A DNA stretch of 14,722 nt from Deltaproteobacteria bacterium RIFOXYA12_FULL_61_11 (lineage in GTDB: Bacteria; Bdellovibrionota_F; JAHFAK01; YA12-FULL-61-11): positions 1 to 14,722 of the forward strand of contig MGSU01000072.1 of the NCBI GenBank assembly GCA_001799195.1. The letters run 5' to 3'. Of the stretch, positions 3,243 through 14,656 are shown in pieces; the first letter of the stretch is position 1; every line of letters starts with the position of its first letter. The notes below the pieces were generated by a model. That model was not told the origin of the DNA, made no database searches, and saw nothing but the letters and a program-made list of their open reading frames with translations. Made by a program: the position numbers and the translations under genes.

Positions 3243-3289
3243 CAACCCATCTTCTGGCTCATATCCTGTCCGATTGAATGAGGACGCGC

Positions 3290-3529
3290 ATGATTTACCT
3301 CAATATTCATGAAGCCAAGACCAACTTGTCCAGATATCTCGAAAGAGTAGAGAGCGGCGAAACGATCATGCTGTGTCGGCGCAATACGCCCATTGCTCAG
3401 ATAACACCACTATCGCCAAAACGATCGACCCCAAGACCAATCGGCTTGAGCAAGGGTGAGGTTGCAGTGACCCCTGCCTTTTTCGAACCCCTGCCGGAGA
3501 GTCTGATTGCCGCATTTTACGGTGACTGA
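3290..3529 (+). CDS. Phd/YefM-family antitoxin
   Basis: A 79-residue protein beginning MIYLNIHEAKTNLSRYLERV, the usual opening of Phd/YefM antitoxins (a strand followed by the EAK..LS..L helix), then ETIMLCRRNTPIAQITP, the second half of the DNA-binding domain. The C-terminal tail (LSKGEVAVTPAFFEPLPESLIAAFYGD) would bind and mask the toxin. An in-frame ATG at 3278 exists, but GAGG at 3280-3283 is well placed for the ATG at 3290 and the family N-terminus starts there. The stop lies one base before the ATG of the toxin, the classical antitoxin-toxin order. The protein probably neutralises the PIN toxin and represses its own promoter together with it. Confidence 0.9.
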   Translation: MIYLNIHEAKTNLSRYLERVESGETIMLCRRNTPIAQITPLSPKRSTPRPIGLSKGEVAVTPAFFEPLPESLIAAFYGD

Positions 3530-3530
3530 C

Positions 3531-3926
3531 ATGCAACCCCGGCGCTATCTCTTGGATACCTGTGCCTTTCTATGGATAGCCAGCGACGATCCAAACCTGT
3601 CGCCGAAAGTACGCGAGGCCTTCAAGGATCCCGAAAACGACATCTTTTTGAGCGCGGCCTCGACCTGGGAAATCGCGATCAAGGTGCACTTGGGAAAACT
3701 TTCGATCAAAGGGCCGCTCAAGGAGCGCATTCCCGAGATCCGCGACCTGCATGGCATCTCTCCTCTACCGATCGAGGAAGAAGATACCCTGGCAATCGGA
3801 CTCTTGCCGATCCTTCACAAGGATCCTTTCGATCGCGTCTTGATCGCCCAGGCCTTGACCAAGGGTTTGTGCATCCTCACTCCGGACCCGGATATTCGTC
3901 GCTATCCGATCTTGACGATGTGGTAG
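3531..3926 (+). CDS. PIN-domain toxin (VapC-like ribonuclease)
   Basis: A 131-residue PIN-domain protein. Acidic residues expected to bind metal in this fold are visible: Asp9 in RRYLLDTCAFLW, Glu47 in SAASTWEIAIK, Asp98 and Asp101 in HKDPFDRVLIAQA, and Asp118/Asp120 in LTPDPDIRRYP. The STWEIAIKVHLGKL and HKDPFDR strings are typical of the PIN subgroup paired with Phd-type antitoxins. VapC family members are ribonucleases, many cutting tRNA or rRNA; the target here is unknown. The frame is open back to 3507, but ATG 3531 directly follows the antitoxin stop and gives the family's usual N-terminus. With the antitoxin it forms a type II toxin-antitoxin module beside the CRISPR locus, possibly an island-stabilising element. 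Confidence 0.9.
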   Translation: MQPRRYLLDTCAFLWIASDDPNLSPKVREAFKDPENDIFLSAASTWEIAIKVHLGKLSIKGPLKERIPEIRDLHGISPLPIEEEDTLAIGLLPILHKDPFDRVLIAQALTKGLCILTPDPDIRRYPILTMW

Positions 3927-4485: not shown

Positions 4486-4866
4486 ACCCGAGGTTCGCTC
4501 TGGTCGAATACCCCCACCATAAACAACCTCGCAAAAACCGACAGCCCCGCGTTGGATTCGGAATGGTTGGTAGTTGTTCCCACCGCCGTTCATTTCTTAC
4601 GAAAGGATAGCCGGGGCGACCGGCGGCGATGTCGGCTTGAAAAAAAATTACCGAGACGGACACCAAATGTCCCCGAGGGGTGAGAGGTTGGGGCACCAGT
4701 GAATTGATCCATGGAGGAGCTATGATGAGGATCCCTATCCAGCTCTTTCGCTTCTGTGCGACCTGGACGATGCGACCACCTCCTGGGTGTCCTGCAACTA
4801 ACCGGGGTTAACTTTCGGCAACGGCTCTGCTACCGACGAGGGAATCAGGTTCGACGAGGGATGAGC
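4486..4866. other. 381-bp interval without a confident gene
   Basis: No recognisable gene, RNA or repeat is seen. The interval has an A-rich tract near 4639-4650, which is the wrong sense for a + strand intrinsic terminator, and a small frame with a good ribosome site at 4722-4811, listed separately. Two fragments read like protein in frames broken by stops: one continuing from the upstream gene (4486-4680) and one at 4703-4860. They may be remnants of decayed coding sequence, or chance in GC-rich DNA. Any promoter for the WYL regulator and cas operon should lie here, but no clear -35/-10 pair was found. Confidence 0.45.
4722..4811 (+). CDS. Possible 29-residue small ORF upstream of WYL gene
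   Basis: GGAGG at 4713-4717 stands 4 nt before an ATG at 4722 and 7 nt before a second ATG at 4725. The frame encodes MMRIPIQLFRFCATW then a Pro/Arg-rich tail and stops at TAA 4809-4811. It could be a leader peptide or the surviving start of a broken gene. The only support is the ribosome site; no homology is recognised. Confidence 0.25.
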   Translation: MMRIPIQLFRFCATWTMRPPPGCPATNRG

Positions 4867-5871
4867 ATGGGCAGCGAGTGCGCCGGGATGGGCGGACAGT
4901 TCTACCTGCAGTGGCTGATGCTCGAGCTGCTCGCGAGCAAGGGGCGGAGTTACAGTATCGCCGAGCTTGCCTTGTCTCTGGCTGACTGCCGCGGCGGAGA
5001 GGTCGAAGAGAGCTTCAAGCGGCGGCTGCGCCGGACCATGGACCTGCTCAGCCGGATCCACCCGATCTGCGAGGAGCGAGCTGGCCGCGAGCTGCGCTTT
5101 TCCATCCCCGACGATCTTAAGACTCTCACCGTGCCGCTCACCTACCCCGAGCTGTACTCGCTGCTGGTCTCCGAGGAGCTGCTCGGGATTTTTAAGAACA
5201 CCGTGTTCTGCAGCAACTTCGAGCGCTTCTTCGCCCGCCTGCGCGCTTCCCTCGGGAGCCGCTTCGCCGAGCTGCTCGAACGCGGCCGGGGCAGCTTCGT
5301 GCAGAGCTACACCCTGCCTCAGGACTACGCCGACAAAATGGACGTGGTCCTTGACCTCACCCGCGGCATCCTCGAGCACAGGAGCGTGGTTCTCACTTAC
5401 CAGAGCCTCGACGCCGCCGAACCGGACCGCCGCCTGTTCGACCCGTACACCCTGTGGCTGCGCGACTCCTTCCTCTACTGCATTGGTCTGTGCAACAAGC
5501 ACGGCGCGGTGCGCGTGTTCAAGGTCAAGCGCATCCTCCACGCCACCTTGCAGCGCAAGCACTTCGTTTTAGAACACCCCTTCGACCTGAAAGGCTCGCT
5601 GCGCAGCAACTTCGGGATGATCTGGGACACACCGGCTACCTACCGCCTGATCTTCACACCGCGTTCCGGCACCCTGGCCCGCGAGGAGCTGGCCGAAAAG
5701 GACCACACCGCCACCCTCCTGCCCGACGGCCGGGTGGAACTTGAGTTCACCCTGGGTGGCAGCCTCGAGATTGCCCGCTGGGTCCGCGGCTGGGGCAACG
5801 AGGTCGAAGTGCAAGAACCCGCCGAGCTGGCCGCAAGGCTGCGGGCGGAGGCGGAGGAGAGGGTGGGGTGA
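4867..5871 (+). CDS. WYL-domain transcriptional regulator, cas-linked
   Basis: A 334-residue regulator with three parts: an N-terminal winged helix-turn-helix region (about 10-80, FYLQWLMLELLASKGRSYSIAELA), a WYL domain (about 165-230, with RRLFDPYTLWLRDSFLYCIGLC and AVRVFKVKRI) and a C-terminal WCX-type extension (about 255-330, LEIARWVRGWGNEVEVQEP). WYL proteins are ligand-sensing regulators often linked to CRISPR and other defence loci; some bind nucleic acid ligands. Lying 93 bp upstream of cas3 on the same strand, it probably controls the cas operon, its own gene, or both. Start choice: GAGGG at 4856-4860 sits 6 nt before the ATG at 4867, while ATG 4861 abuts it; the frame is open back to 4756 but those residues do not resemble the family. 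Whether it represses or activates cannot be told. Confidence 0.85.
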   Translation: MGSECAGMGGQFYLQWLMLELLASKGRSYSIAELALSLADCRGGEVEESFKRRLRRTMDLLSRIHPICEERAGRELRFSIPDDLKTLTVPLTYPELYSLLVSEELLGIFKNTVFCSNFERFFARLRASLGSRFAELLERGRGSFVQSYTLPQDYADKMDVVLDLTRGILEHRSVVLTYQSLDAAEPDRRLFDPYTLWLRDSFLYCIGLCNKHGAVRVFKVKRILHATLQRKHFVLEHPFDLKGSLRSNFGMIWDTPATYRLIFTPRSGTLAREELAEKDHTATLLPDGRVELEFTLGGSLEIARWVRGWGNEVEVQEPAELAARLRAEAEERVG

Positions 5872-5964: not shown

Positions 5965-8205
5965 ATGAAGGAGCAGAGCGCGTTCTGCAACCAACCGCTC
6001 GCCTACGCCCACTCGTTGCCGGACCGCCCCGAGACGACCTGGCACCCGCTCGAAGCTCATCTCGAGGCCGTGGCCAAGCTCGCCTGCGAGTTCGCGGCGC
6101 CTTTTAGCGCGAGCGGCTGGGCCAACCTTGCCGGGCTGTGGCATGACCTGGGAAAATTCGCCCCTGAGTTCCAGGAGTATCTCAGGAGGTCGAACGACGC
6201 GCATCTCGAGTCCAAACCCGGCCGGGTCGATCACTCCAGTGCCGGGGGGCGGCATGCAGTGAAGAGCGTTGGCCCGCTGGGCCGCGTCCTGGCCTACGTG
6301 ATCTGCGGCCACCACGCCGGCCTCCCCGATTGGTCGAACGAGCATCACCAACATGCAGACCTCGAGCATCGTCTTGCTGAAAAGCAGCACCTCGAGCGTG
6401 CACAACGAGGGGAAATCCCTGGTTGGCTCCTCGACCAACCCCTGCCCACCGAGAAAGCCAAGGGTGGTACGGAATTGTCCCTCTCACTGTGGCTGCGCAT
6501 GCTCTTCTCCTGCCTGGTAGACGCTGATTTCCTGGACACCGAGGCCTTTGCCGACCCGGAGAAGGGGAAGCAGCGCAAGAGATATCCCTCCCTTGCTGAG
6601 CTGCTTCCAATCTTCGACACCTTCATGGACACAATAACCAAGTCAGTGCAGCCAAGCACAGTCAACGAGCTGCGCGCCGAGCTGCTCGCTGCCTGCCAGA
6701 ATAGAGCAACCGAAGCACCGGGGCTGTTTACCCTGACTGCTCCGACCGGAACTGGTAAAACGCTGTCCTCGTTGGCTTTTGCCCTCAATCACGCCGTGAA
6801 GCACGGCAAACGCCGTATCATCTACGTCATCCCCTACACCAGCATCGTGGAGCAGACCGCCGACCAGTTCCGCAAAATTTTCGGCAATGCGGTGGTCGAA
6901 CACCACAGCAACCTCGACGTCGACGATCCGGCCAAGGACAATCCGCGTAGCCGACTGGCCTGCGAGAACTGGGACGCGCCACTCATCGTCACCACCGCGG
7001 TACAGTTCTTCGAGAGCCTCTTCTCCAGCCGAACCAGCCGCTGCCGCAAGCTGCACAATGTTGTGAACAGCGTGGTGATTCTCGATGAAGTCCAGCTTCT
7101 CCCCCCGGATTTCCTTACTCCCGTTCTCGAGGCAATCCAGGAACTCGGCCGCAACTACAAGGTGACCTTCGTGCTCGGCACAGCGACTCAGCCGGCATTT
7201 ACACCGCGTCAAGGTTTCGAATTCAACTTCAATGGCTTGCCTGGGTTGCGCGAAATTTGTACCGCACCAAGGAGACTGCACGATGCACTCCGGCGCACCC
7301 GCGTCGAGCTGATCGACCATCTGGACGTGCCTCTGCCCTGGCTTGACCTAGCCGAAAAATTACTTGGACATGAACGCGTGCTGTGCATCGTCAACCGTCG
7401 CGACGATGCCCGGAAGCTCTACGAATTGCTGCCGAAGAAGGATTCCTATCACCTCTCCGCGCTCATGTGCGGTCAGCACCGCAGCGAGGTTATCGCCAAG
7501 ATCAAGGCGGCGCTGGCTTCCGGTGAGCCCGTGCGCGTGGTCAGCACCCAGCTTATCGAGGCCGGCGTGGACCTCGATTTCCCCGTGGTGTATCGCGCCC
7601 TGGCCGGGCTCGATTCCATCGCCCAGGCCGCCGGGCGCTGCAACCGGGAGGGCCGGCTCGAGCTCGGACAGGTCTTCGTCTTTCAACCGGACAGTGCAAT
7701 TCCGGTCGGCCACCTCCGCCAGGCAGCGGAGATAGGGAGACAGCTTCTCATAGAGCCTTGCGGGGACCGGCTGGCGCCGGAGCGCTTCGAGCACTTCTTC
7801 CGCCAGCTCTTCTGGATCCACGGCGAACGGCTCGATCGGCACAACATCCTTGGATACTTGCGCAATGACAGTGAGCTGAGAATCAGCTTCCGCAGCGCGG
7901 CCGAACACTTCCACCTTATCGATGAGCAAGGCCAGGCCACTGTTGTGGTCTTGCACGGCGAAGAAGGCGCGCGACTCGGTGCGTTCCTCGTCCGCCTTGG
8001 CGCCGAACGCTTCCTCTTGCGCAAGCTGCAACGCTACACCGTCAACGTACCGCGAAGGATGCATCATGAACTTCTCCAGCGTGGAGCCATCGAGGAAGTC
8101 CATCCCGGCATCTACCTTCAGCGGCAAGGTGGTTTGTATGACCAGAATCTCGGCCTGTGCGCCGACCTCGCCGGTATCTTCGAACCCGATCAACTGATTT
8201 GTTGA
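5965..8205 (+). CDS. cas3: Cas3 helicase-nuclease, type I-C
   Basis: The 746-residue target-degrading enzyme recruited by Cascade; it unwinds DNA 3' to 5' and cuts it with the HD nuclease. HD domain: His60-Asp61 (LWHDLGKF), His90 (DHSSAGG), His116-His117 (CGHHAG) and Asp186 (LVDADFLD). Helicase: Walker A TAPTGTGKT (258-266, Lys265), Walker B-like LDEVQLLP (374-377; a Gln ends the box where other subtypes have His), GTATQP (405-410), motif V VSTQLIEAGVDLDFP (526-540) and motif VI QAAGRCNREG (554-563). All expected residues are present, so it should be active. HD and helicase are fused in the usual order and length. ATG 5965 is preceded by AAGG at 5955-5958. It is the first cas gene; the 93 bp upstream holds no clear promoter and it may be read through from the WYL gene. 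Confidence 0.97.
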   Translation: MKEQSAFCNQPLAYAHSLPDRPETTWHPLEAHLEAVAKLACEFAAPFSASGWANLAGLWHDLGKFAPEFQEYLRRSNDAHLESKPGRVDHSSAGGRHAVKSVGPLGRVLAYVICGHHAGLPDWSNEHHQHADLEHRLAEKQHLERAQRGEIPGWLLDQPLPTEKAKGGTELSLSLWLRMLFSCLVDADFLDTEAFADPEKGKQRKRYPSLAELLPIFDTFMDTITKSVQPSTVNELRAELLAACQNRATEAPGLFTLTAPTGTGKTLSSLAFALNHAVKHGKRRIIYVIPYTSIVEQTADQFRKIFGNAVVEHHSNLDVDDPAKDNPRSRLACENWDAPLIVTTAVQFFESLFSSRTSRCRKLHNVVNSVVILDEVQLLPPDFLTPVLEAIQELGRNYKVTFVLGTATQPAFTPRQGFEFNFNGLPGLREICTAPRRLHDALRRTRVELIDHLDVPLPWLDLAEKLLGHERVLCIVNRRDDARKLYELLPKKDSYHLSALMCGQHRSEVIAKIKAALASGEPVRVVSTQLIEAGVDLDFPVVYRALAGLDSIAQAAGRCNREGRLELGQVFVFQPDSAIPVGHLRQAAEIGRQLLIEPCGDRLAPERFEHFFRQLFWIHGERLDRHNILGYLRNDSELRISFRSAAEHFHLIDEQGQATVVVLHGEEGARLGAFLVRLGAERFLLRKLQRYTVNVPRRMHHELLQRGAIEEVHPGIYLQRQGGLYDQNLGLCADLAGIFEPDQLIC

Positions 8206-8215
8206 AGGAGGAATC

Positions 8216-8899
8216 ATGACCGACACCCGACCGCGCAGCGCGCCCTTCAGAATTGTGGTCTGGGGCGACAACGCCTGTTTCACCAGGCCGGAGATGAAGG
8301 TCGAGCGCGTCTCGTACGACGTGATGACACCCTCTGCCGCGCGTGGCATCCTCGAGGCCATCCTGTGGAAACCGGCCATTCGCTGGATCGTGGAGCGCAT
8401 CGACATCCTCAACCCCATCAAATGGGCCTCGGTGCGGCGCAACGAGGTTGGTGCGGTGATGTCACCGCGCACCGACGGTCTCTTAGTGGAGGAGAATCGT
8501 CAGCAGCGCGCTGGTCTGTTCCTACGCGATGTCCGCTATGTACTGCACGCCCGGTTCGAGCTGACCGCCAAAGCCGGACCCGAAGACAGCGTGATCAAGT
8601 TCCAGGAGATGTTCCTGCGTCGCGCCGAAAAGGGCCAGTGCTTCCACAGACCCTACCTTGGCTGCCGCGAGTTCGCCGCTGAGTTCGCCCTGCTCGCGCA
8701 GCACGAGGGCCCATCCCAGCCGATCGACCACAGCCAAGACCTCGGCTTCATGCTCTACGACCTGGAGCACGACCCCGCTGCTCAGATCGAAGGCAACCAT
8801 CACTGCGGACCGAACTGCCGGGCGGCTTTTTTCCGGGCCGAACTCAGACACGGCAGCCTACTCGTGCCCCCCCCTGACAGCCCGGAGGTGCGGCGATGA
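8216..8899 (+). CDS. cas5c: Cas5c (Cas5d), pre-crRNA processing endoribonuclease
   Basis: A 227-residue RAMP protein. In type I-C, which lacks Cas6, Cas5c cuts the repeat hairpin to make crRNA and stays on the crRNA 5' handle in Cascade. Family signatures: FRIVVWGDNACFTRPEMKVE, VSYDVMTPSAARGILEAI, DILNPIKW, and YLGCREFAAEF near 147-157. Tyr34 in VSYDV lies where the catalytic Tyr of studied Cas5d enzymes is found; His111 in YVLHARFEL is a candidate for the catalytic His, but I cannot align the Lys partner with certainty. A strong ribosome site (AAGGAGG, 8205-8211) precedes ATG 8216, ten bases after the cas3 stop. The end overlaps cas8c by ATGA, implying coupled translation. No cas6 is present in the window, in keeping with this role. 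Confidence 0.95.
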   Translation: MTDTRPRSAPFRIVVWGDNACFTRPEMKVERVSYDVMTPSAARGILEAILWKPAIRWIVERIDILNPIKWASVRRNEVGAVMSPRTDGLLVEENRQQRAGLFLRDVRYVLHARFELTAKAGPEDSVIKFQEMFLRRAEKGQCFHRPYLGCREFAAEFALLAQHEGPSQPIDHSQDLGFMLYDLEHDPAAQIEGNHHCGPNCRAAFFRAELRHGSLLVPPPDSPEVRR

Positions 8900-10665
8900 T
8901 ACTGCAAGCGCTTGCCGCGTACTATCAGAGGCTTTCCAAAGATGGTTCCAACCAGGTCGCCCCACGAGGCTTCCAACACAAAGAGATTCCCTTTCTCCTC
9001 ATTCTCGAGCCTGATGGCACCTTTTCTACCCTCATCGATACCCGAACCAAAGTCGGGAAGAAACTCTTGGCTCGACAATTCCTCGTTCCACAAGAGAAAG
9101 GTCGTTCCGGTTCGCGGGCTTGGCAGACCGCCAATCTGTTGTGGGACCATTATGGGTACGTCCTGGGCTGGCCAAAAAGCGACACGGCCGAGCACCGCGA
9201 CATGGCCGCAAAGCAACATGTCGCCTTCAAAGCCGAGCTTGCGGTACTCGTAACGAAGTACCCTGAGGACCATGAACTGACAGCCGTGATGAACTTCCTG
9301 AATTCTGATCATAAAACTCTGGTCTTCCAGCATCCGCTGTGGGCTGATTGCGCCAAGATACCAGGGTGTAATCTCAGCTTCATCGTTACGGGACAAGAAG
9401 AACTGGTTTGTCAGAATGGTTCGGTGCGCGACTACCTCACCGCGATCGGTACGACTAACCCTGAGGAAGACGATGAAGAGGCTGGGGAGGTGTCTTCGGC
9501 CCCTGCCTTCTGCCTCGTTAGCGGCGACCTCGCACCGGTCGCACGGCTCCATCCCCGCACCCCGATCGCCGGTGCCAAGAGCAATGCCAAAATCGTAGCT
9601 TTCCAGAAAAATATGGGCTTCGACTCCTACGGCAAGGAGCAATGTCACAACGCGCCGACCAGCGCACAGGCCGCCTTTGCCTACACCACTGCACTCAACA
9701 CGCTGCTCGGCAAGACCTCCCGGCAGAAACTCGGTGTCGGCGACGCCACTACGGTTTTTTGGGCCGAGGAAAAACATCACTTCGAGGACCTCTTCGCCCA
9801 GCTCTTCGACGAACCGGGCAAGGAGAACCCCGAGCAGCTCAACCAGGCTATTAGGACATTGTATCGTTCTCCCGAGAGCGGAACACCGCCGCTCGAAAAC
9901 GACCTGACCCGCTTCTACGTGTTAGGGCTGGCACCCAATGCGGCGCGCATCGCCATACGCTTCTGGCACGCCGGCACGGTCGGCCGCACCGCGGCCAGCA
10001 TTAGGCAACACTTCGAGGATTGTGCGCTTGCCCATCGTGCCCATGAACCAGAACACCTCTCTCTCTGGCGCCTGCTCGTCTCGACCGCCGCCCTTAGGAA
10101 AAGTGAGAACATTCCGCCAAACCTCGCCGGGGAAATGATGCACGCGATCCTCGCAGGTACGAATTACCCGCAGTCGCTCCTCGCGGCCACGCTGCGCCGT
10201 TGCCGCGCCGAGCGCGAAATTACCTATCCGCGCGCCACACTGCTCAAGGCGGTGCTGGTGCGCAGCCATCGATTGTCCAATGCAACCACCACGGAGGTCG
10301 GTATGTCGCTCGATGAAAGCAATCCCAACGTCGGTTACCGTCTCGGCCGGCTCTTCGCCGTTTTGGAAAAAATCCAGGAGGAAGCTAGCCCGGGGATCAA
10401 CGCCACCATCCGCGACCGCTTCTACGGCGCAGCTTCAAGCACGCCGGTCACAGCCTTCCCTCACCTTCTGAAGCTCAAGAATCACCACCTGTCCAAGCTC
10501 GAGAACCGCGGCCGGGCGGTCAACCTGGAAAGGCTGCTCGGCGCTATCTTCGATCCGGTCGTGGATTTTCCCTCGCATCTTGCGATGCAGGACCAGGGCC
10601 GCTTCGCCATCGGCTATTATCACCAGCGCCAGGCACTGTTCACCAAACAAGACAAGAATACCTGA
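8896..10665 (+). CDS. cas8c: Cas8c (Csd1), large subunit of type I-C Cascade
   Basis: A 589-residue subtype-defining large subunit that recognises the PAM and helps open the target DNA. It begins MILQALAAYYQRL, the standard Csd1 start, followed by RSGSRAWQTANLLWDHYGYVLG (split here only as a landmark) and the conserved NPNVGYRLGRLFAVLEK region near residue 480. GGAGGTG at 8884-8890 precedes the ATG, which overlaps the cas5c stop (ATGA). Length is usual for the family. The C-terminal 120 residues are predicted to be made a second time from an internal start as Cas11c. No frameshift or missing segment is seen. Confidence 0.95.
   Translation: MILQALAAYYQRLSKDGSNQVAPRGFQHKEIPFLLILEPDGTFSTLIDTRTKVGKKLLARQFLVPQEKGRSGSRAWQTANLLWDHYGYVLGWPKSDTAEHRDMAAKQHVAFKAELAVLVTKYPEDHELTAVMNFLNSDHKTLVFQHPLWADCAKIPGCNLSFIVTGQEELVCQNGSVRDYLTAIGTTNPEEDDEEAGEVSSAPAFCLVSGDLAPVARLHPRTPIAGAKSNAKIVAFQKNMGFDSYGKEQCHNAPTSAQAAFAYTTALNTLLGKTSRQKLGVGDATTVFWAEEKHHFEDLFAQLFDEPGKENPEQLNQAIRTLYRSPESGTPPLENDLTRFYVLGLAPNAARIAIRFWHAGTVGRTAASIRQHFEDCALAHRAHEPEHLSLWRLLVSTAALRKSENIPPNLAGEMMHAILAGTNYPQSLLAATLRRCRAEREITYPRATLLKAVLVRSHRLSNATTTEVGMSLDESNPNVGYRLGRLFAVLEKIQEEASPGINATIRDRFYGAASSTPVTAFPHLLKLKNHHLSKLENRGRAVNLERLLGAIFDPVVDFPSHLAMQDQGRFAIGYYHQRQALFTKQDKNT
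10303..10665 (+). CDS. cas11c: Cas11c small subunit, internal translation product within cas8c
   Basis: GGAGG at 10293-10297 lies 5 nt before an ATG at 10303 in the same frame as cas8c (codon 470). Translation from there gives a 120-residue, largely helical protein beginning MSLDESNPNVGYRLGRL. In studied type I-C systems the small subunit Cas11c is translated independently from inside cas8c at about this point and is required for a functional Cascade, so the site is very probably used. There is no separate cas11 gene in the operon. What is seen is the start signal and frame; production of the protein is inferred from the family. Confidence 0.85.
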   Translation: MSLDESNPNVGYRLGRLFAVLEKIQEEASPGINATIRDRFYGAASSTPVTAFPHLLKLKNHHLSKLENRGRAVNLERLLGAIFDPVVDFPSHLAMQDQGRFAIGYYHQRQALFTKQDKNT

Positions 10666-10689: not shown

Positions 10690-11556
10690 ATGAACCAGCC
10701 CCTGCAACACCGCTACGATTTCGTCCTGCTCTTCGACGTCCTGGATGGAAACCCCAACGGTGACCCTGACGCCGGTAACCTGCCACGGGTCGACCCCGAG
10801 ACCGGGCACGGCCTGGTCACCGATGTCTGCCTCAAGCGCAAGGTGCGCAACTACGTGCAGCTCGTGAAGGGCTGCACTGCACCCTTCGATATCTTCATCA
10901 AAGAAAAAGCGATCTTGAACAACCTTATCGACCAGGCTCACGATCAGGCCGAGGTACAAACCAAAGAAAAGGGGGAGAAAACCGAGGCAGCAAGGCACTA
11001 CATGTGCAGCAAGTATTATGATGTCCGCACCTTTGGTGCGGTGATGTCCACGGGGAAAAATGCAGGCCAGGTCCGCGGACCCGTGCAGCTCACCTTCTCC
11101 CGCAGCGTGGGCCAGATCGTCCAACTCGAGCATAGTATCACCCGCATGGCCGTGGCCACCGAAGCTGAAGCGGAAAAACAAAGCGGCGACAACCGCACCA
11201 TGGGCCGCAAGTTCACCGTGCCCTATGCCCTGTATCGTTGCCACGGCTTCATCTCGGCGCCGCTGGCCGCTCAAACCGGTTTCGGCGAGGCAGACCTTGC
11301 ACTGTTCTGGGAAGCACTGAAGAACATGTTCGAGCACGACCACTCCGCGGCCCGCGGGCAGATGGCCACGCGCAAGCTGGTCGTCTTCAAACACGCATCG
11401 ACCCTGGGCAACGCGCCCAGTCACGTGCTCTTCGACAAGGTCAAGGTCGCGGCCAGGACGCAGGGCGAGGTCATTCGCTCGTACGCCCAGTACGAGATCA
11501 CCCCGCCCACAGCGACCGAACTGCCGCAGGGAGTGAGCATGGAGGTGCTGGTGTGA
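10690..11556 (+). CDS. cas7c: Cas7c (Csd2), crRNA-coating backbone subunit
   Basis: A 288-residue RAMP protein that polymerises along the crRNA to form the Cascade backbone and displays the guide for pairing. The N-terminal string [20 protein letters not shown] (residues 8-27) and later [15 protein letters not shown] are characteristic of Cas7/Csd2, as is [10 protein letters not shown] followed by [11 protein letters not shown]. An excellent ribosome site (AAAGGAGG, 10676-10683) precedes ATG 10690, fitting the high copy number needed (several per complex). Its stop overlaps the start of the DinD-like gene (GTGA), and GGAGG near its end serves that next gene. The sequence appears intact. Confidence 0.96.
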
Positions 11557-12416
11557 GCGACATTCTCGAAGCCGCTGAGAACGTGAACCAGAAGTCCATG
11601 GGCCTGGTCGTCTTCAAGAGCAAGCAGATACGCCGCCTTTTTCATGAAGGCGCTTGGTGGTTCTCTGTCATCGACGTCTGTGCTGCGTTGATAGATAGTC
11701 CTGACCCAGGTGCCTATTGGAGAAAGTTAAAACAACGACTTAAGGAAGAAGGCCTCGAACCCGTGACATTTTGTCACGGGTTGAAAATGCGAGCTGCCGA
11801 TGGGAAGCAACGCGAAACCGACTGCGCCACCACCGAGGGCTGCTTCCGTATCATCCAGTCCATCCCCTCGCCCAAGGCTGAGCCGTTCAAGCGCTGGCTG
11901 GCCAAGGTCGGCTACGAGCGCGTGCAGGAGATCGAGGACCCGGAGCTGGCCACGGCGCGGACCAAGGAAATCTACCGGGCCAAGGGTTACTCGGAGGCCT
12001 GGATCGAGAAGCACCTGCGCGGGATCGCGGTGCGGGCGGAGTTGACCGACGAGTGGCAGAGACGTGGTATAGAAGAACAACCCGAGTACGCCATCCTGAC
12101 CGCCGAGATCAGCAAGGCCGCCTTCGGGCTTACTCCATCCGAATACAAAGACTTGAAGGGTCTCGAGCGCGAAAACCTGCGCGACCACATGACCGACCTC
12201 GAGTTGATCTTCTCGATGCTGGGCGAGGCTGCGACCACCGAAATCGCCAGGAAACAGGATGCCCAAGGGTTTGCCGAAAACAAGGTTGCGGCCAGGAAAG
12301 GCGGCACCATCGCCGGGGAAGCCAGGACGCAGCTCGAGAAGGAAACCGGGGGACGAGTAGTGTCGCCGGAAAACTACCTTGCCGAACCGGAAAGCCGCAA
12401 GAGGCTGAAGGGATGA
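11553..12416 (+). CDS. DinD-like protein with BRO-N domain, embedded in cas operon
   Basis: A 287-residue protein of the DinD (DNA damage-inducible protein D)/BRO-N family. The BRO-N-like part spans about 18-120: [41 protein letters not shown], then [22 protein letters not shown] and [20 protein letters not shown]. The C-terminal half ([57 protein letters not shown]) matches DinD-type proteins in layout and length (E. coli DinD about 274 residues). E. coli DinD inhibits RecA by dismantling its filaments; whether that applies here is unknown. The start is GTG at 11553, 7 nt after GGAGG (11541-11545), overlapping the cas7 stop; the end overlaps cas4 (ATGA). Both junctions imply coupled translation with cas genes, which is not the usual I-C gene order. 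Bases around 11630-11780 are more AT-rich than neighbours, hinting at separate origin. Confidence 0.88.
11758..11782. promoter_or_regulatory. Perfect 11-bp inverted repeat inside the DinD-like gene
   Basis: Arms AACCCGTGACA (11758-11768) and TGTCACGGGTT (11772-11782) are perfectly complementary and separated by TTT. The codons spell EPVTFCHGL. The element could form a very stable RNA hairpin or be a dimeric protein-binding site. The VT.CH peptide naturally yields part of the palindrome, but the outer bases do not follow from the protein and appear chosen. No T-run follows, so it is not a standard terminator. Confidence 0.55.
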
Positions 12417-13048
12417 CAACATATCCCGAAGAAGACCTGCTCCCCATCTCGGCCTTGCAGCACCTGGCCTTCTGTGAGCGTCAATGCGCCTTGATCCACC
12501 TGGAGCATCTCTGGGGCGAGAACCGCCTGACCGCCGAGGGGCGACTGTTGCACGAGAAAGCCCACGAGGGTCCGGATGAGGCACGCAACGACGTTCGCAC
12601 CGAGCGAGGGGTGGCGCTGCGTTCCTCGAGCCTCGGCCTCTTCGGCATCGCGGACGTGATCGAATACCGGCAAAGCATGTCGGGCACCTGGCAGCCGTAT
12701 CCGGTCGAATACAAACGCGGCAGACCGAAAGCAAACCGCTGCGATGAACTGCAGCTCTGCGCCCAGGCGCTGTGTTTGGAGGAGATGAACAAGGTCGCGA
12801 TCCCAACCGGCGCGCTCTTTTATGGGCAACCGAGGCGGCGCAAAGAAATAACCTTCGACGAGGTCCTACGAACCTTGACCAGGGATTGTGCAAGGCGACT
12901 GCATACCCTATTCGAGCGTGGCCGAACCCCGCCCGCCCGGTTCGAGAAGAAGTGCGAGAGCTGCTCACTCATGCACCTGTGCCTGCCCAAGGTAACCGGG
13001 GTCGGCAAAGACGTGCAGAGCTATCTCAGAAGGATGCTGGCGGAATGA
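12413..13048 (+). CDS. cas4: Cas4 RecB-family nuclease for spacer acquisition
   Basis: A 211-residue nuclease that trims prespacers and sets PAM choice and orientation with Cas1-Cas2. RecB motifs: His48 (LLHEKAH), Asp81 (GIADVIEY), Glu99-x-Lys101 (VEYKRGR) and the following DELQLCAQA helix. The iron-sulfur cysteines are Cys21 (FCERQC) with Cys181, Cys184 and Cys190 (CESCSLMHLC), so a 4Fe-4S cluster is expected. It begins with an ATGA overlap with the DinD-like gene and ends with an ATGA overlap with cas1. The product is of normal length and complete. The frame is open upstream to 12053 but that part lies inside the preceding gene. Confidence 0.95.
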   Translation: MTTYPEEDLLPISALQHLAFCERQCALIHLEHLWGENRLTAEGRLLHEKAHEGPDEARNDVRTERGVALRSSSLGLFGIADVIEYRQSMSGTWQPYPVEYKRGRPKANRCDELQLCAQALCLEEMNKVAIPTGALFYGQPRRRKEITFDEVLRTLTRDCARRLHTLFERGRTPPARFEKKCESCSLMHLCLPKVTGVGKDVQSYLRRMLAE

Positions 13049-14076
13049 AGAAGCTGCTCAACACTCTCTTCGTCACTACCCAGGGCGCCTACCTGGCAAA
13101 AGAGGGTGAGACTATCCAGGTACGGGTAGAGCAGGAAACCCGATTGCAGGTCCCAATCCATACCCTCGCTGGGGTGGTCTGCTTCGGCCAGGTCTCGGTC
13201 AGCCCCTTCCTCTTAGGCATGTGTGCCGAGCACGGGGTCGGGGTGAGTTTCCTCAGCGAGCGCGGCCGCTTTCTGGCACGGATGCAGGGGCCGGTCAGCG
13301 GCAACGTGCTGCTGCGGCGCGAGCAATACCGCCGGGCCGACGACGAACGGCAAGCGACAACCCTGGCCTGTTCGTTTGTTCTCGGCAAACTGGCCAACTG
13401 CAAAACCGTGCTCCTGCGCGCGGTGCGCGACCACGGTGAGAAACCGGGGAGCACCGACCTCGAAGCTGCCGCACATCGTTTGCGCGCTTCGATCACCCAG
13501 GTCCAAGCGGCCGACAGCCTGGAGCGAGTACGCGGCATCGAGGGCGAAGCCGCCCTGACCTATTTCGGGGTCTTCGATGCGCTCATCACCGGAGAGAAAG
13601 AAGCCTTCTTCTTCCGCGGGCGCAACCGTCGTCCACCGCTCGACAACGTCAACTGCCTGCTTTCCTTCGTTTATACCCTGCTTGCCCACGACGTGGCCTC
13701 GGCCCTCGAGACCGTGGGTCTGGACCCGGCGGTGGGCTTCCTGCACCGCGATCGGCCTGGGCGGCCGGGCTTGGCCCTGGACGTGATGGAAGAATTGCGC
13801 CCCGTACTGGCGGATCGCCTGGTGCTGTCCCTGATCAACCTGGGTATGATCAAGAGCAAGGGGTTCAGCGCTTCCGAAAGTGGCGGGGTACGCATGGACG
13901 ATGACACCCGGAAAGAGGTGCTGGTGGCGTACCAGAAGCGCAAGCAAGAGGAAATGGTGCACCCCTTCCTGGAGGAGAAGGTACCGTTGGGTATGCTGCC
14001 CTTCATCCAGGCCCTGCTCCTGGCTCGGCACCTGCGCGGTGATGTGGAGGCCTATCCACCGTTCCTGTGGCGCTGA
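13045..14076 (+). CDS. cas1: Cas1 integrase, type I-C
   Basis: A 343-residue metal-dependent integrase that inserts new spacers at the leader end of the array as a complex with Cas2. Expected metal ligands are present: Glu166 in RGIEGEAA, His234 in AVGFLHRDRPGRPG, and Asp246 with Glu249 in LALDVMEEL. The N-terminal beta domain (MKKLLNTLFVTTQGAYLAKE) and the family C-terminus (HLRGDVEAYPPFLWR) are typical of I-C Cas1. Its ATG overlaps the cas4 stop. No substitution at the active site is visible, so acquisition should be possible in principle, which contrasts with the very short array downstream. Confidence 0.97.
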   Translation: MKKLLNTLFVTTQGAYLAKEGETIQVRVEQETRLQVPIHTLAGVVCFGQVSVSPFLLGMCAEHGVGVSFLSERGRFLARMQGPVSGNVLLRREQYRRADDERQATTLACSFVLGKLANCKTVLLRAVRDHGEKPGSTDLEAAAHRLRASITQVQAADSLERVRGIEGEAALTYFGVFDALITGEKEAFFFRGRNRRPPLDNVNCLLSFVYTLLAHDVASALETVGLDPAVGFLHRDRPGRPGLALDVMEELRPVLADRLVLSLINLGMIKSKGFSASESGGVRMDDDTRKEVLVAYQKRKQEEMVHPFLEEKVPLGMLPFIQALLLARHLRGDVEAYPPFLWR

Positions 14077-14085
14077 GGTGCAGCC

Positions 14086-14376
14086 ATGATGGTCTTGGTC
14101 AGTTACGACGTCGCCATCACCTCGCCGGGAGGTGCGCGCCGCCTGCGCCGGGTGGCCAAGGTGTGCGAGAGTCATGGGCAACGTGTGCAGTTTTCGGTCT
14201 TCGAGTGCCTGGTCGACCCAGCGCAGTGGACCATGCTCCGCTCTCGGTTGGAACACGAGATCGACCCGCAGCTCGACAGCCTGCGCTACTATTTCCTCGG
14301 CGCCAATTGGCGGAACCGAATCGAGCACGTCGGGGCCAAGAAGACCTTCGACCAGGAGGGACCGCTCATCGTGTAA
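14086..14376 (+). CDS. cas2: Cas2, structural partner of Cas1
   Basis: A 96-residue ferredoxin-like protein that forms the central dimer of the Cas1-Cas2 integration complex. MMVLVSYDVA opens the first strand, with Asp8 the conserved acidic residue of the family; QFSVFECLVDPAQW and LDSLRYYFL follow as expected. GAGGTG at 14075-14080 lies 5 nt before ATG 14086 and 8 nt before a second ATG at 14089, so either Met may be used. It begins 9 nt after the cas1 stop and is the last gene of the operon; the leader starts directly after it. Confidence 0.96.
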   Translation: MMVLVSYDVAITSPGGARRLRRVAKVCESHGQRVQFSVFECLVDPAQWTMLRSRLEHEIDPQLDSLRYYFLGANWRNRIEHVGAKKTFDQEGPLIV

Positions 14377-14558: not shown

Positions 14559-14656
14559 GTCGCCCCCCCCGCGGGGGCGTGGATTGAAACCCGTGATTGT
14601 CCTAGACTTTTCCGAGCGTCGCAAGTCGCCCCCCCCGCGGGGGTGTGCGTCAGCAA
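14559..14656 (+). CRISPR. Minimal type I-C CRISPR: one intact repeat, one spacer, one degenerate repeat
   Basis: Repeat 1 (14559-14590, 32 nt) is a typical I-C repeat: GTCGC, a C-run, a G-run, then GTGGATTGAAAC. Its stem is CGCCCCC/GGGGGCG. The spacer is 34 nt (14591-14624), a normal I-C length. Repeat 2 (14625-14656) is identical over its first 19 bases, then has C to T at position 20 (a wobble pair in the stem) and loses the GATTGAAAC end entirely. That marks the distal end of the array. No further repeat follows in the remaining 66 bases. One crRNA can be expected at most. Confidence 0.9.

Follow-up and report, generated by a model that had tools for sequence, protein, structure and literature searches.

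The closest described counterparts of the gene analyzed here belong to PDC-S13, the same family, which PADLOC lists in its library of known and candidate anti-phage defense proteins with candidate status only and with no function attached. The PDC families reportedly originate from a 2024 preprint by Payne et al. on defense genes embedded in immune systems. A more distant relative, Escherichia coli DinD, has been named among the regulators of RecA filaments (PMC4457935). Genes of other families have been described in defense loci, with RhuM open reading frames found between cas1 and cas9 in the type II-C system of B. fragilis (PMC5704556) and RhuM and Fic/DOC genes inside restriction-modification operons (PMC3710099). 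A structural parallel is provided by Deinococcus radiodurans DdrC, the product of a radiation-induced gene under the DdrO/IrrE regulators, which binds single- and double-stranded DNA, shields it from nucleases, anneals strands and circularizes linear DNA (PMC5436757).

The window (the whole stretch of DNA that was analyzed) is one entire contig of 14,722 bases that carries a complete type I-C operon, comprising cas3, cas5c, cas8c, cas7, cas4, cas1c, cas2 and an I-C repeat, with a DinD-like gene located between cas7 and cas4. Its features are as follows:

5965-8205, + strand, cas3
8216-8899, + strand, cas5c
8896-10665, + strand, cas8c/csd1
10690-11556, + strand, cas7/csd2
11541-11545, + strand, GGAGG Shine-Dalgarno-like site within cas7, 7 nt ahead of GTG 11553
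11553-11556, + strand, GTGA overlap of the cas7 stop and the gene start (GTG start only)
11553-12416, + strand, DinD-like/Bro-N gene (PADLOC candidate PDC-S13), 287 aa counted from GTG 11553
11598-11600, + strand, alternative ATG start, the site used by relatives
11625-11906, + strand, Bro-N domain, aa 25-118
11688-11831, + strand, variable, exchanged Bro-N segment, aa 46-93 (from protein and operon comparisons)
11832-12386, + strand, conserved C-terminal part (aa 94-278), remotely similar to the C-terminus of E. coli DinD
12413-12416, + strand, ATGA overlap of the gene stop and the cas4 start
12413-13048, + strand, cas4
13045-14076, + strand, cas1c
14086-14376, + strand, cas2
14559-14590, + strand, I-C repeat, one intact copy (degenerate copy at 14625-14647)

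Although the cas3 product passes the cas3 domain cut-offs, it stays below those of the listed full-length Cas3 models of NCBI. The I-C repeat recurs in a second array elsewhere in the same genome, on a different contig (14 matches, G000:C148:8554-9429), the end of which it nearly reaches. Upstream of the operon lie a Phd/YefM-like antitoxin gene followed by a PIN-domain (VapC-type) toxin-like gene (3278-3926) and, immediately before cas3, a gene for a WYL/WCX-domain protein (4861-5871) that is a possible regulator of the operon.

A first-pass annotation of this DNA had described a DinD-like open reading frame between cas7 and cas4, preceded by a Shine-Dalgarno site inside cas7 and coupled to its neighbors at both junctions. 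The coordinates and the strand of the frame are correct, and the GGAGG motif is where it was placed. The downstream overlap is likewise sound and does not depend on the choice of start codon, the TGA of the gene occupying 12414-12416 and the ATG of cas4 beginning at 12413; cas4 and cas1 are joined by an overlap of the same stop-start kind (13045-13048). The upstream GTGA overlap, on the other hand, exists only if GTG 11553 is used, and it hinges on the start choice because members of the family start about 15 codons downstream, at the equivalent of ATG 11598. Residues 1–15 of the protein are not conserved and residues 1–14 are modeled at a pLDDT below 50. Given the later start in the relatives and the poorly modeled first residues, the overlap with cas7 is likely rather than certain.

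The Bro-N domain that had been proposed for the product is clear (E 3.5e-13) and is the sole domain found; the Pfam family Virulence_RhuM gave no match to the window protein. The PADLOC model PDLC04920 (PDC-S13) matches the protein over its full length (E 3e-121, aa 17-282 of 287), while PDLC04919 matches it at 6.7e-5. Since PDLC04920 also recognizes E. coli DinD (E 2e-16 over aa 122-250), which for its part matches a sister PDC-S13 model at E 2e-121, the two proteins are remotely homologous. The kinship is nevertheless distant: the NCBI DinD equivalog model NF008573 scores 488 bits on E. coli DinD and has no hit to the window protein, indicating a remote relative rather than DinD itself, and direct BLAST of E. 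coli DinD against the family returned nothing better than E 0.005. On these profile comparisons, the protein is a remote member of the DinD superfamily, sharing with E. coli DinD a Bro-N domain and, through PDLC04920, a homologous C-terminal part, so that the earlier DinD call holds as remote homology and fails as an assignment to DinD proper. The genetic setting differs as well, as dinD of E. coli K-12, unlike the gene in the window, is located outside any defense operon. As a separate observation, the product of E. coli dinD (L029:3261-4085) is matched from end to end by a PADLOC model for type I specificity subunits (E 3e-114), a hint that fusions of DinD and HsdS exist.

When 84,980 species genomes were scanned, more than 570 relatives were recovered, and many of the best 80 of these sit in cas operons from varied phyla. 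The genome search proposed beforehand for cas neighborhoods containing the gene thus shows that numerous genomes have the arrangement, and the idea that it is unique to one genome was rejected. The source genome itself contains a second copy, 75% identical and on another contig. This copy lies immediately ahead of a Cas9d-like gene in a locus (L030:1817-8708, contig C209) of the order gene-cas9-cas1-cas2-array, with a type II cas1 and an array of 20 copies; the Cas9d-like protein scores 323 bits, under the model cut-off of 375.

For an unbiased estimate of linkage we used 345 Desulfobacterota genomes, 36 of which carry the family, in 49 places. In 14 of the 36 carrier genomes a Cas1 was encoded on the contig of the gene and no more than 9 kb away, against a chance expectation, computed from genome size and Cas1 number, of 0.26 genomes (P about 7e-20); the strands agreed in all 14, and in 13 the Cas1 gene was the downstream one. 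In a tree of 94 proteins the window protein falls inside a group of 18 rows, 17 of them cas-linked, and the cas-linked label requires 10 changes on the tree compared with 25.5 in shuffles (5 versus 23.7 on a tree of the C-terminal part only). A cas-linked clade of DinD-like proteins, which the first-pass annotation had asked about, therefore exists; neither this result nor the recurrence of the arrangement refutes that annotation. Among the cas-linked rows of the tree the CRISPR subtype switches at least 7 times, which makes movement of the gene from one CRISPR type to another probable. The viral collections hold few relatives, IMG/VR contributing 12 loci and phage records 4, making a phage origin of the family unlikely. 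Some copies in cas loci are degraded or duplicated, namely L053 with an internal stop, L081 with a second fragment and L178 with two copies in a row.

The positions occupied by the relatives are diverse, covering I-B, I-C, I-E and type II cas loci as well as type I, III and IIG restriction operons. The order cas7-gene-cas4 occurs in the window and in seven further loci (L052, L079, L098, L099, L129, L164, L178), and cas4-gene-cas1 in nine (L050, L053, L057, L061, L063, L065, L077, L101, L172). Elsewhere the gene lies ahead of cas3 (L060, L081, L162, L166, L167), ahead of cas9 (L030) or, in eleven type I-E loci, ahead of cas1e (L051, L054, L055, L067, L068, L069, L074, L091, L104, L163, L176), and an annotated record, the type I-B locus on plasmid pACLO of Arcobacter cloacae LMG 26153, reads cas7-cas5b-cas3-ATPase-cas4-gene-cas1b-cas2. 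In type III restriction loci the relatives are inserted between the methylase and the helicase/nuclease genes (L066, L073); others accompany type IIG-like systems (L056, L116), and one adjoins hsdM with hsdS and hsdR downstream (type I restriction, L064). Many other relatives outside cas loci neighbor unrelated or unassigned genes. Residence of PDC-S13 within known defense operons is thus confirmed for both cas and restriction loci. The gene is not bound specifically to CRISPR, to the adaptation step or to the boundary between cas7 and cas4: its positions vary and restriction operons are hosts too. The restriction, pre-cas3 and pre-cas9 positions also weaken the notion of a dedicated Cas1/Cas4 partner.

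As a control for the junction itself, we surveyed 79 Cas1c loci from the same 345 genomes, 75 of which have interference genes on the locus. No insert separates these genes from cas1 in 40 of the 75, and the other 35, some of which carry two inserts, contain a four-helix-bundle gene (11), RhuM (8), DinD-like (7), Fic (3), HEAT-nuclease (3) or other genes (7). A few kinds of gene, several of which PADLOC lists as candidates, make up most of the inserts, and the possibility that the junction is special to the DinD-like gene was rejected by this control. RhuM and Fic genes use the same I-C slots as the DinD-like gene but belong to different protein families. The names of the inserts are backed by Pfam and PADLOC, except that of the four-helix-bundle gene, whose Pfam match is below threshold (weak 23S_rRNA_IVP) and which has no PADLOC match; this gene, of about 190 aa, is the commonest insert of the I-C junction (11/75; L231, L218, L240 and others). 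A HEAT-repeat protein with a PD-(D/E)XK nuclease domain (PADLOC HEAT_CxxC_PDDEXK) occupies the cas7-cas4 junction in L282, L250 and L281, in one case together with the DinD-like gene. The occupied junction between interference and adaptation modules is a place in which to seek further genes of this sort.

Comparison of the family members reveals two parts with contrasting histories. Residues 94–278 are strongly conserved, whereas residues 46–93 are not. In the sister I-C operons L057 and L061 the two proteins are 98% identical over aa 94-278 and only 42% identical over aa 46-93. DNA identity between these operons is about 70-93% in cas7, cas4, cas1 and the C-terminal part of the gene, but 47-60% in the ~200 nt with which the gene begins, the only other drops being at intergenic gaps and beyond cas2. 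The same pattern is observed for the proteins of L067 and L106 (95% versus 50%). When the type of segment is placed on the C-terminal tree it requires 16 changes, compared with 18.2 in shuffles, so it hardly tracks phylogeny. These alignments indicate that the Bro-N segment is swapped between near-identical operons, a behavior that hints at a fast-changing recognition function. The C-terminal part, in turn, is as constrained as Cas1, with a dN/dS of 0.025-0.06 against 0.033 for cas1 and 0.048 for cas4 (one pair).

A structure model of the window protein (pLDDT 85) had one significant fold match in the PDB by Foldseek, D. radiodurans DdrC, which covers most of the protein, including both domains (E 3.1e-7, probability 1.00); a PDB sequence search returned no match, and the two proteins share only ~15% sequence identity. 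The VIA comparison with DdrC gave a Z of 12.2, in a range that mostly helical models can attain by chance (up to about 13), and an rmsd of 15.5 Å, so only parts of the two structures superpose and the domain arrangement of the model probably differs from that of DdrC. DdrC is also the top, although weak, fold match of E. coli DinD, a result that is supporting only since the DinD model is poor (pLDDT 58). The predicted DdrC-like fold does support a DNA-binding role for the window protein, and it provides a concrete biochemical starting point in the form of DNA ends, nicks and RecA. The first-pass annotation had suggested a role in DNA repair from the antagonism of RecA by E. coli DinD; that inhibition is not transferable as evidence across so remote a kinship, and overall the role proposed there finds only partial support.

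We consider it about an even chance that the gene encodes an independent DNA-binding antiviral candidate, embedded in DNA-cutting immune systems with which it is co-expressed and co-inherited, rather than a dedicated Cas component. The observations behind this reading are its residence in defense operons, co-direction, sharing of slots, constraint, segment exchange and predicted fold. The rarity of the family in phages speaks for it too; the many relatives beside unrelated or unassigned genes and the partial superposition on DdrC speak against it. The product would bind DNA: its changeable Bro-N segment would recognize a DNA site or a protein that is specific to the phage, and its conserved C-terminal part would bind or hold DNA, possibly DNA ends; by analogy with E. 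coli DinD, the latter might possibly interfere with RecA. Replication or repair of the phage would then be blocked once DNA has been cut by the surrounding system or that system has failed. Antiviral activity of the family has candidate standing, as a PADLOC listing is no proof of activity. More tentatively, the DdrC/DinD-fold protein may be a module common to CRISPR and restriction, in which an exchangeable segment picks the phage-specific target and a constant domain acts on breaks, the whole being a modular antiviral protein that evolution re-targets and that is carried inside other immune systems.

The main rival to this embedded antiviral gene is an accessory for repair control, which would bind the breaks made by its host system (Cas3, Cas9 or a restriction enzyme) and either block RecA-dependent rescue of the invader or guard the ends of the host. 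Every host system with an assigned identity cuts DNA, the predicted fold is that of a protein with the protective, annealing and circularizing activities reported for DdrC, and the listed RecA regulator DinD is a remote homologue. We nonetheless regard such an accessory as a doubtful, if possible, explanation: the relationship to DinD is remote, the gene is absent from most I-C operons, and a generic end-binder would not need a Bro-N segment that varies between near-identical operons. That variation, in operons of about 70-93% identity, also argues against a BRO- or antirepressor-type protein that regulates transcription of a resident phage or of its own operon. The Bro-N domain and the N-terminal half, which weakly matches phage anti-repressor families, are what such a regulator would predict, but with a mid-operon location, a stop-start overlap and a C-terminal part that matches only one weak phage-regulator profile (phrog_2657), we find it unlikely.

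The points against the remaining two alternatives leave them, like the regulator, less likely than repair control. A spacer-acquisition factor working with Cas4-Cas1-Cas2 would account for the fact that, in several subtypes, the gene often comes immediately before cas4 or cas1; it is very unlikely in view of the copies ahead of cas3 and cas9 and of the presence of the same family in restriction operons, which have no adaptation step. A neutral or selfish hitch-hiker that lands in gene junctions by chance would be expected to show a patchy distribution and the degraded and tandem copies described above, yet a dN/dS as low as that of cas1, the co-direction with cas1 in 14/14 genomes and the concentration of the family in defense operons make it highly improbable. 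If the reading as an embedded antiviral gene is right, some apparent CRISPR accessory genes would form a second immune layer, mobile among unrelated systems, with the cas operon as carrier.

A literature search, with the preprint by Payne et al. outside its reach, found no paper joining DinD or Bro-N with cas operons, and within the same scope no report turned up of the family's spread over cas types, of the slot in I-C loci, of a DdrC-like fold or of exchanged segments. In relation to known systems, then, the cataloguing of the family as a defense candidate and the existence of embedded genes of this sort are already established, and the analysis presented here adds its occurrence across four CRISPR types, a common slot in I-C loci, a predicted DdrC-like fold and the exchange of the Bro-N segment.
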